Assembly (NCBI RefSeq): GCF_004366035.1
Contig: NZ_SOEE01000003.1
Span: forward strand, 186,001-250,000
DNA: 64,000 bases
Source of the DNA: Cytobacillus oceanisediminis
Lineage (GTDB): Bacteria > Bacillota > Bacilli > Bacillales > Cytobacillaceae
Reading direction: 5' to 3'
Both the position numbers and the translations under genes were made by a program. A model generated the notes under the pieces. The model worked only from the letters and a program-made list of their open reading frames with translations, ran no database searches and was not told the DNA's origin. Shown piece after piece: positions 46,378-58,335 of the stretch; the stretch's first letter is position 1; each line of letters begins with the position of its first letter.

Positions 46378-46512
46378 TGTTTCCCTCTCAACACGCTTAC
46401 GAGGTTAGCTGACGGATTCGGGTCTTGAGAGTACCCTACCTGTAAAAGGATTCACCCCAAGTACTTTTATTAAAAAGTACAGTTGGTTCCCCCGCTCAAT
46501 TAAGATTAAGCG
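46378..46512 (-). ncRNA. Cyclic-di-AMP (ydaO/yuaA) riboswitch
   Basis: Read on the minus strand: CGCTTAATCTTAATTGAGCG GGGGAACCAA at 46512-46483, TTGGGGTGAATCC at 46461-46449, AGGTAGGGTACTCTC at 46442-46428, and CCGTCAGCTAACCTCGTAAG at 46413-46394. These are the conserved blocks of the ydaO/yuaA aptamer in the right order and spacing; the ktrAB copy at 51385 has the same blocks. The downstream terminator fits the known OFF switch at high cyclic di-AMP. The gene controlled is the DAACS symporter 45006-46229. Confidence 0.9.
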
Positions 46513-46656
46513 AAAATTATTAATGTTTTTTTAATATATTAACAATAATCATAAAAGTTGTAAATCATACGATTTTCTTATCTATGATTACTAAGGTTAC
46601 TATACTTCAAATAGTAATTTAATAGGAAAGGTCAATTTGACTTTTGAGCAATAAGA

Positions 46657-51300: not shown

Positions 51301-51384
51301 ATTTTACATACTATGTTAAAAAAAGATTGACAAGAGATTTCCATGGGAGTAATTTATACTTATTAATTTCATAGTAAACCTTTT

Positions 51385-51535
51385 TGCTGAATCATTATGA
51401 GCGGGGGAACCAATTTTGATAAACCTGGTTTATCTTGGGGTGAATCTTAGCATATTAAAGCTAAGAAGGGATACTCTCAATCCCTAATCCGACAGCTAAC
51501 TCCGTAAGCCGAATCGAGAGAAGGGTTGATGGAAA
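51385..51535 (+). ncRNA. Cyclic-di-AMP (ydaO/yuaA) riboswitch upstream of ktrAB
   Basis: Conserved blocks GAGCGGGGGAACCAA (51400-51414), TTGGGGTGAATC (51435-51446), AGGGATACTC, CCGACAGCTAACTCCGTAAG (51489-51508) appear in the order of the ydaO/yuaA aptamer. The variable peripheral stem TTAGC/GCTAA is retained. In B. subtilis the same riboswitch precedes ktrAB and turns it off when cyclic di-AMP is high. Confidence 0.93.
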
Positions 51536-55844: not shown

Positions 55845-56216
55845 ATGGTGGGCTCTAAAGATACATGCGATATTTACTGTTTTGATGAAGAAAAAGTGAA
55901 CCGCATTCAAGGGGAACTGGTGAAGGAAGATCTTTCAGGTGCTGCCCAATTATTTAAGGCTCTTGCTGATGAGAACCGGGCAAAGATTTCTTATGCACTA
56001 TGCAGGGATGAAGAGCTGTGTGTCTGTGATATTGCCAATATCATTGGTGCAACAGTTGCAACGGCATCCCATCATTTGCGGACTCTGCATAAGCAGGGAA
56101 TTGTTAAGTTTCGGAAAGAAGGCAAATTGGCTTTTTATTCATTGGATGATGATCACATCAGGCAATTAATGATGATTGCGCTTGAACACGGAAATGAGGT
56201 GAAAGCCAATGTCTGA
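55845..56216 (+). CDS. cadC: ArsR-family metal-sensing repressor CadC
   Basis: 123 residues. The CadC metal site is intact: N-terminal CDIYCFDEEKVNRIQ (Cys8 and Cys12) and ELCVCDIANIIGATVATASH (Cys pair near 59-61 in alpha-3), which bind Cd/Pb. Winged helix: ISYALCRDEELCVCDIA and VATASHHLRTLHKQGIVKF. Operators are in front of the gene, so it represses itself and cadA. GAGGTGAGATC is the ribosome site. The cadA start overlaps its last eight bases. Confidence 0.95.
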   Translation: MVGSKDTCDIYCFDEEKVNRIQGELVKEDLSGAAQLFKALADENRAKISYALCRDEELCVCDIANIIGATVATASHHLRTLHKQGIVKFRKEGKLAFYSLDDDHIRQLMMIALEHGNEVKANV

Positions 56217-58335
56217 ACAAGCAGGAATTGCGGAGAAGGAGACGGTAACCTACCGTGTTCAGGGCTTTTCCTGAGCAGGCTGCGCCAAGACGTTCGAAGA
56301 GAACGTGAAACGCCTGGATGGCGTTTTAGATGCAAATGTGAATTTTGGAGCTTCCAAAATAACCGTTACAGGGAAAGCTTCTATGGAAGCGGTCGAAAAA
56401 GCCGGTGCCTTCGAAAATCTGAAGCTGCGTGCCGAGAATGAAAAAGCGGTGGAGCGGGAGCCATTCTGGAAACAGAAAGCTAATCTTAAAGTTTATATTT
56501 CAGCAATTATTCTTGTCGTCAGCTGGTTTTTAAGCGAACCGTATGGACAGGATCATTTATACCCAATCGCAGGGTATGCAGCAGCCATCATCATAGGCGG
56601 TAATACTTTATTCCTGAAAGGCTTCAAAAACCTTGCTAAATTGAACTTTGATATGAGCACCCTGATGACAATCGCCATTATTGGAGCCGCAATCATTGGC
56701 GAATGGGGAGAAGGAGCGATGGTTGTCATCCTCTTTGCCATCAGTGAAGCACTTGAGCGCTTTTCAATGGAAAAAGCACGCCAGTCCATTGAATCCCTGA
56801 TGGATATAGCTCCTAATGAAGCATTGGTCAGACGGGGACATGAAGAAATGCTCATTCATGTAGATGATATTCAAATTGGTGACGTTATGATTGTTAAGCC
56901 AGGTGAGAAATTGGCCATGGATGGAGTGGTCTTAAAGGGGACCTCATCCCTGAACCAGGCAGCCATTACAGGAGAAAGTGTGCCTGCAGTAAAGACTGCA
57001 GGTGATGAGGTTTTTGCAGGAACACTGAATGAAGAAGGGCTGCTTGAAGTAAAAGTAACGAAGCGTGCTGAAGATACAACTATTGCCAAAATCATTCATT
57101 TAGTGGAAGAAGCACAGGCGGAAAAAGCTCCTTCACAGCAGTTTGTCGATAGGTTTGCCAAATATTACACGCCTGCCATCATTGTTTTAGCCTTTTTAAT
57201 TGCGGTTGTTCCTCCTCTGTTTGGCGGGGAATGGAGTGAGTGGATTTACCAGGGTCTTGCTGCACTGGTTGTCGGCTGTCCATGTGCACTCGTTGTTTCT
57301 ACGCCAGTAGCGGTCGTAACAGCGATCGGAAATGCGGCAAGAAACGGTGTGTTAATTAAAGGCGGCATCCACCTGGAGGAAACAGGGGCACTTAAAGCGG
57401 TTGCATTTGATAAAACAGGCACATTAACAAAGGGGGTGCCTGCGGTTACAGACCTTATCACCATTAGCGGTGAAGAAAAACACCTCCTCCAAATCACGGC
57501 AGCCATTGAAAAGGGGTCACAGCATCCCCTTGCTTCAGCAATCATGAAAAAAGCAGAAGAGATGGGCTCTGATTTTAATGGGCTGAATGCGGAGGAATTC
57601 ACCTCTATTACCGGCAAGGGAGTAAAAGCTGCAGTGAATGGTGTCCTCTATTATGCTGGCAGCCCCAATCTTTTTGAAGAGCTCCATAGCGGCATGGACA
57701 GCTTTATTCAGAAGCAAATATCAGATTTGCAGACCCAGGGTAAAACCGTCATGATTCTGGGCACAGAAAGCGAAATTCTGCTTTTAATAGCTGTTGCAGA
57801 TGAAATGCGGGACCATTCGAAAACTGTGATCAGCAAATTAAATGAAATGGGAATAAAAACGGTCATGCTGACAGGTGACAATAAAAGAACTGCTTTGGAA
57901 ATCGGAAAGCAAGCTGGTGTTTCAGAGATTAAAGCTGATTTGCTGCCTCAGGATAAACTGGCTTTTATTAAAGAACTGCGTGCCAGCCATCAAAGTGTGG
58001 CAATGGTAGGGGATGGTGTCAACGATGCGCCTGCCCTTGCTGCGGCTGCGGTTGGTGTTGCCATGGGCGGAGTGGGAACTGATACAGCACTCGAAACAGC
58101 AGATATTGCGTTAATGTCAGATGATTTGAGAAAACTGCCTTATACCATTAAGCTCAGCCAAAAAGCGTTAGGGATCATTAAACAGAACATTACATTCTCA
58201 CTTGGAATCAAGGCGCTGGCATTATTGCTGGTAGTTCCAGGATGGCTGACCTTATGGATTGCCATTTTTGCAGACATGGGAGCAACATTGCTGGTAACCT
58301 TGAATAGTTTACGGCTGCTCAAAATAAAAAAATGA
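56209..58335 (+). CDS. cadA: P1B-type Cd2+/Zn2+ ATPase CadA with an in-frame UGA at the HMA cysteine
   Basis: 708 codons from the ATG at 56209 (GAGGTG upstream). Codon 22 is TGA (56272-56274), exactly where the first Cys of the heavy-metal-associated motif [14 protein letters not shown] should be (read as GFS-TGA-AGCAKTF); TGC to TGA is a one-base change. Past it 687 codons are intact: CPC motif in [38 protein letters not shown], and [20 protein letters not shown]. Possibilities are a nonsense mutation (translation restarting at GTG 56305), selenocysteine, or a base-call error. It exports Cd2+, Zn2+ and Pb2+. Operon with cadC. Confidence 0.93.

Follow-up and report, generated by a model that had tools for sequence, protein, structure and literature searches.

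It has previously been predicted that the TIGR01525/COG2217 ZntA family of ATPases (for example, ABB15669.1) includes selenoproteins, as stated in the available text of four sources (PMC13188914, PMC9312934, PMC2398784 and PMC5029168). The counts printed there are small: the GOS table gives a single count in its ATPase row (1; PMC2398784, available text), and a 2016 survey gives 25 organisms and 32 proteins for the ATPase family (PMC5029168, available text). No ATPase is named in the available portions of two further sources (PMC1794560 and PMC12013277), and the roles of metal-related selenoproteins have been described as requiring more study (PMC13188914, available text). Other systems described are the UxxU metal-binding (seleno)protein NF041115 and the MerP-type proteins, which also have HMA-type domains with Sec at the place of CxxC (PMC13188914, available text).

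The cadA gene described here resembles the cation-transporting ATPase E1-E2 selenoprotein family in that its product exceeds the TIGR01525 cut-off and has a UxxC motif. With the ZntA/CadA ATPases (PDB 4umv and the Gram-positive CadA) it has in common the HMA domain, the catalytic core, the TIGR01512 match and an upstream ArsR-type regulator, but it has a predicted Sec instead of Cys at the first position of the HMA motif. Unlike this pump, the NF041115/MerP-type proteins are small and stand alone; the HMA domain of CadA scored 26.6 bits against NF041115, far below the cut-off of 95, and therefore CadA is not a member of that group. Thus, the prediction of the family as selenoproteins is already in the available text of these sources, whereas its occurrence in many genomes of one order, a covarying element that is possibly a two-hairpin SECIS, and repeated Sec/Cys switching are added here. 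Among the paper titles listed, none was recognized as describing a Sec-containing CadA in Bacillales.

The window, that is, the whole 64-kb stretch of DNA analyzed, carries cadA on the forward strand at 56209–58335, from an ATG at 56209 to a TGA stop codon at 58333–58335. Its product, a P1B-type heavy-metal efflux ATPase, would be 708 residues long, codon 22 being read as Sec. This codon is a UGA at 56272–56274 (forward strand) in the context YRVQGFS-UGA-AGCAK, so that U-A-G-C are residues 22–25 and U opens the metal-binding UxxC motif in the HMA domain. When TGA is read as U, the protein contains HMA (residues 14–64, PF00403), E1-E2 ATPase (PF00122) and HAD hydrolase (PF00702) domains, and it scores 606.1 bits against TIGR01525 (cut-off, 346.25) and 532.1 bits against TIGR01512 (cut-off, 313.5). 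It aligns over residues 14–705 with the zinc-transporting ATPase of PDB 4umv (E = 1.1e-144), where U falls on the first Cys of the HMA motif GMDCAAC. A CPC motif is present in VVGCPCALV, and thus the HMA domain, the CPC motif and the P-type catalytic domains that characterize CadA/ZntA were all found. An earlier sequence-only reading of this DNA had placed a TGA at codon 22, where relatives have Cys, in a gene with intact P1B-ATPase motifs; the sequence, the Cys codons of aligned loci together with the 4umv motif, and the domain and family matches bear out each of these points. It had also given 687 open codons after the UGA; the frame is indeed open to the stop, but it holds 686 sense codons, 687 being the number with the stop included.

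The gene immediately upstream (55845–56216, forward strand) overlaps the start of cadA by 8 nt and itself ends with TGA. It encodes a cadC-like ArsR/SmtB metalloregulator of 123 amino acids that scored 94.1 bits against NF033788 (HTH_metalloreg; cut-off, 55) in the profile search and matched PF01022 in the domain search. A CxxxC close to its N terminus and a CVCD motif make up what we take to be the CadC-type cysteine pattern. By family and operon, cadA is predicted to be a Zn/Cd/Pb(/Hg) exporter accompanied by a metal-sensing ArsR-type repressor. A simple motif test detected an ORF bearing the regulator's CxC motif upstream of 157 of 176 UGA copies and 82 of 84 Cys copies of cadA. The ORF list of the window ends cadA at the UGA or starts it late, and because standard gene calling stops or late-starts at such a codon, this common metal pump of the order is probably mis-annotated. 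Elsewhere in the window, Rfam gave only two c-di-AMP riboswitches (RF00379), at 46378–46522 on the reverse strand (101.2 bits) and 51375–51525 on the forward strand (92.4 bits), approximately 5 kb apart, and ARAGORN gave no tRNA.

The genome of the window (5.84 Mb in 61 contigs; completeness, 100) contains the complete set of Sec-decoding genes. We found selA (547.6 bits; cut-off, 267.9), selB (375.2 bits; cut-off, 242.25), selD (419.4 bits; cut-off, 125; with one in-frame TGA) and tRNA-Sec (60.3 bits; cut-off, 47), the last of which ARAGORN also called as tRNA-SeC with anticodon tca. The tRNA-Sec lies outside the window, elsewhere in the genome, and no tRNA was found by ARAGORN at the selB locus. 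Since UGA is the ordinary stop of both cadA and the upstream gene, a general reassignment of UGA is excluded. The machinery is present in the genome, the UGA is aligned with Cys of homologues, and the frame is conserved on both sides of it, as expected of a selenoprotein gene. The UGA at 56272–56274 is real and almost certainly a selenocysteine codon. We therefore consider it very probable that cadA is a selenoprotein gene encoding a P1B-type exporter, with SelB/hairpin-directed Sec at codon 22 giving a UxxC HMA domain.

SelB, bound to the hairpin or hairpins just 3′ of the UGA, would deliver Sec-tRNA-Sec to codon 22, and the HMA domain would thereby receive UxxC in place of CxxC. Sec insertion, SelB binding and the use of both hairpins are predictions from sequence. 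In such a domain, the selenolate would most likely be a soft-metal ligand, and compared with a thiolate it could capture metal more tightly or at lower pH; the likeliest gain from Sec would be that Cd, Pb or Hg meets a ligand of greater softness and acidity. It is the position of the residue in the motif that points to Sec as a metal ligand. A redox role, for example a selenenylsulfide that gates the domain, would instead follow the many redox selenoproteins for which UxxC is listed in the available text of the literature; however, the motif here is an HMA metal site that aligns with that of the zinc-transporting ATPase, and we regard a redox role as unlikely. We give still less weight to the idea that the UGA is as much a regulatory switch as a Sec codon, so that when selenium is short or selenide is metal-bound, translation ends after 21 codons and the level of the pump reports selenium/metal status. 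The UGA does come very early, straight after the overlapping regulator gene, and one genome (G022) keeps a Cys copy of cadA adjoining a UGA copy (L083, G022:C160). However, it stands exactly where relatives have the metal-binding Cys, and therefore no switch is required.

The alignment of the codon-22 region in related strains, which the sequence-only reading had proposed, showed that TGA recurs in many genomes. Among the matches listed in 36 genus and 193 family genomes, many of those to CadA have a single in-frame stop, a TGA. In a first set of loci (L021–L142, of which L065 yielded no copy and L083 two), the codon-22 position is TGA in 93 of the 122 gene copies and encodes Cys in the remaining 29, and the aligned part contains no further in-frame stop; in a second set (L143–L199), the aligned codon is TGA in 50 of 57 and TGT in seven. 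Both sets were picked partly for a listed TGA, and therefore these shares are not frequencies. Together they provide 143 UGA genes, including that of the window itself (L021); three earlier places were refetched with longer flanks (L200–L202), and L201 also has a Cys copy. Among the best 80 named loci, some of which are the same places as loci of these sets, the aligned codon is TGA in 33, TGT in 39 and TGC in eight. Carriers of a UGA cadA include Cytobacillus firmus DS1, Schinkia azotoformans LMG 9581, Bacillus timonensis, Evansella clarkii, Robertmurraya massiliosenegalensis and Mesobacillus zeae, and the closest named loci (L203–L205, from Cytobacillus firmus and Bacillus sp. ZZV12-4809) have 90.8–91.7% protein identity, which puts the window close to Cytobacillus and presumably in the order Bacillales. 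An exact-DNA scan of genome contigs for the UGA site returned 0 stretches, the record of the window itself perhaps having been excluded, and a plasmid search with the HMA region returned 342 records, all of them below 80% identity. The common element also accompanies a UGA cadA in a metagenome bin titled Desulfoscipio geothermicus (L232, JAENZP010000021.1); this bin is non-Bacillales by name, and either transfer or mis-binning would account for it.

A bacterial SECIS is a close downstream hairpin whose small apical loop contains a guanosine (PMC1088965, available text). Hairpin 1 (56290–56306, forward strand) has a 6-bp stem and the loop GAAGA, which starts with G, at a UGA-to-loop spacing of 21 nt, and thus by sequence and fold it is a candidate SECIS. 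It consists of the perfect 6-bp repeat ACGTTC-GAAGA-GAACGT that the sequence-only reading had pointed out, with 15 bases separating it from the UGA; the possibility raised there that the hairpin arose by chance gives way to its conservation and covariation among UGA genes. A second hairpin, putatively part of the same signal, follows directly at 56307–56327 (forward strand), with the loop UGGAU, an 8-bp stem in the fold of the window and a four-pair core at 56311–56314/56320–56323. The best fold of 56272–56331 contains both hairpins, at −21.3 kcal/mol and a z of −2.92. The relatives L069 and L068 gave z values of −2.55 and −2.74, L077 gave −1.53 with a best fold lacking hairpin 2, and the copy in G169 gave −1.41.

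We examined covariation in 123 unique UGA windows, four windows with another hairpin having been excluded beforehand. In hairpin 1, columns 20–32 are GC in 114, AT in six and GT in three, and columns 23–29 are CG in 113, TA in six, TG in two, and CA and TT in one each; this covariation sits at third codon positions and comes about through synonymous changes. The pair 19–33 is CG in 63 of the 123, unpaired AG in 59 and AT in one. In hairpin 2, columns 40–50 are AT in 104 of the 123, GC in 13, GT in five and TA in one; because column 40 lies at the second position of its codon, its change also alters the residue. When those of 1431 column pairs with at least 90% pairing were ranked, 40–50 came first, 20–32 third and 23–29 fourth, so that covariation is stronger in hairpin 2 than in hairpin 1; the pair 11–38, which lies outside the hairpin model, came second. 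Sliding the partner columns by 1–3 lowered the mean covariation to at most 0.0041, against 0.0386 in the model, and pairing to 0.27–0.48, against 0.95. The best fold includes the four-pair core of hairpin 1 in 117 of 136 unique UGA windows versus 11 of 63 unique Cys windows, and that of hairpin 2 in 128 of 136 versus three of 63; full pairing of the core is impossible in three (hairpin 1) and four (hairpin 2) of the 136. The sequences of this set share ancestry, and therefore these counts are not independent events.

The bacterial SECIS model is a single hairpin. If the second hairpin is needed, two hairpins in a row would extend this model, and the element downstream of the UGA in cadA is possibly a two-hairpin SECIS. 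A lower stem between CAGG, just after the UGA, and CCUG was tried and dropped, column 5 varying while column 43 is constant, yet L077 folds in this way. By eye, another hairpin follows the UGA in L182, L183, L185 and L187, with a stem near GCUCA/UGAGC (CUGCUCG/CGAGCAG in L185) and the loop GUU, which may point to a second type of SECIS in cadA. In the selD of the window's genome (L018:1531–1590), the predicted fold after the in-frame UGA shows two hairpins in a row, in a cadA-like layout, with a z of only −1.26.

Next, pN/pS was calculated from two sets of UGA genes (n = 9 and n = 10). The values for the two sets were 0.00 and 0.07 over the eight codons before the UGA, 0.02 and 0.13 over codons +1 to +34, 0.10 and 0.17 over codons +35 to +60, and 0.09 and 0.10 over codons +100 to +400. 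The pS was lower in codons +1 to +34 (0.35 and 0.33) than further on (0.55–0.71; 0.55 and 0.70 over codons +100 to +400), and over the eight codons before the UGA it was 0.11 and 0.62, the first set being low there as well. The pattern of pN/pS and pS is consistent with translation through the UGA plus a constraint on the RNA.

We also asked how UGA copies are distributed with respect to selA. The motif pattern QGF[ST]-TRR-x-x-C-A was found in 124 of 193 family genomes; by eye, the listed places were all TGA except for one TAA (G119:C12, L065), where tblastn gave no cadA and which was taken as a chance match. None of the 21 family genomes without selA over the cut-off had the pattern (Fisher p = 4e-11), although two of them, G169 and G171, still hold a UGA cadA with a motif that the pattern missed. 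The pattern was absent from 48 of the 172 selA-positive family genomes, some of which have Cys copies or UGA copies of another motif. At the order level, among the matches listed, 63 genomes had a UGA copy and 61 of them had selA, against 20 selA-positive genomes among the 67 that had Cys rows only (Fisher p = 9e-17); the two genomes with a UGA copy and no selA are G357 and G563. Neither selA nor selB was found over the cut-offs in G169, G171, G357 or G563, and therefore their UGA cadA should not be Sec-decoded. These four copies look like stranded genes, acquired with mobile DNA or left behind after loss of the machinery. A near-identical UGA cadA with the motif GLTUADCSK occurs in five genus groups (L038, L059, L060, L061, L062 and L063/L200); one of the genomes, G169, has neither selA nor selB over the cut-off. 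The contig of L200, the G169-type copy, has genes that by eye are transposase-like, CadD-like and restriction-type. The GLTUADCSK cadA looks like a mobile selenoprotein gene that is able to land where it is undecodable. In a genome without selA or selB over the cut-off, a Cys pump of the CadA type with two HMA-like repeats lies beside a UGA cadA (L201:9137–11572).

The sequence-only reading had left three options for the UGA, of which Sec decoding is now strongly supported, with selA, selB, selD and tRNA-Sec all in the genome. Another was a nonsense mutation with internal restart at the GTG at 56305, which would yield a pump without an intact metal-binding motif. The ORF from this GTG loses the HMA match and retains a complete ATPase core, the N-terminal HMA domain of CadA-type pumps can be dispensable, and such a state may apply to the four genomes that lack selA and selB over the cut-offs. 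However, the UGA recurs at the same codon in many relatives, its copies track selA, and covarying hairpins lie downstream of it. Only 52 of the 143 UGA genes have GTG at the position of 56305, whereas 70 have GTA, and the earliest codon past the UGA at which translation could begin varies among them between +1 and +126. Because GTG is that infrequent and amino-acid selection acts on both sides of the UGA, restart is unsupported, and we consider it highly improbable. The last option, a base-call or assembly error at 56272–56274, has behind it only the general possibility of error in a 61-contig draft and has a negligible probability, being excluded because the same TGA is shared with many other genomes at 59–93% protein identity.

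Beyond Sec decoding itself, a wider reading is tentative: Sec may act as a non-redox metal ligand of a transporter, the second hairpin (loop UGGAU, approximately 40 nt past the UGA) may belong to a two-hairpin SECIS signal, and Sec and Cys may have been exchanged many times. If this is true, the Sec and Cys pumps of the order would form a natural series on what Sec buys in soft-metal binding. With both versions in related species, and side by side in one genome (L083), cadA could serve to test selenium as a metal ligand in a transporter. To count exchanges, a FastTree tree was built from the ATPase core without the HMA domain, with 220 distinct rows (149 UGA and 71 Cys); rows shorter than 550 residues, duplicates and the three refetched loci were left off. 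At least 20 Sec/Cys changes are needed on this tree, versus a mean of 60 and a minimum of 53 in 100 shuffles. The Cys gene L128 is closest to a UGA gene, L099 (0.854, against 0.797 for the closest Cys gene), and the Cys gene L130 is likewise closest to the UGA gene L110 (0.932), which suggests a recent Sec-to-Cys change in both. Two Cys copies, L128 and L214, are still able to form both hairpin cores; L214 is closest to Cys genes (0.931) and may be a recombinant.
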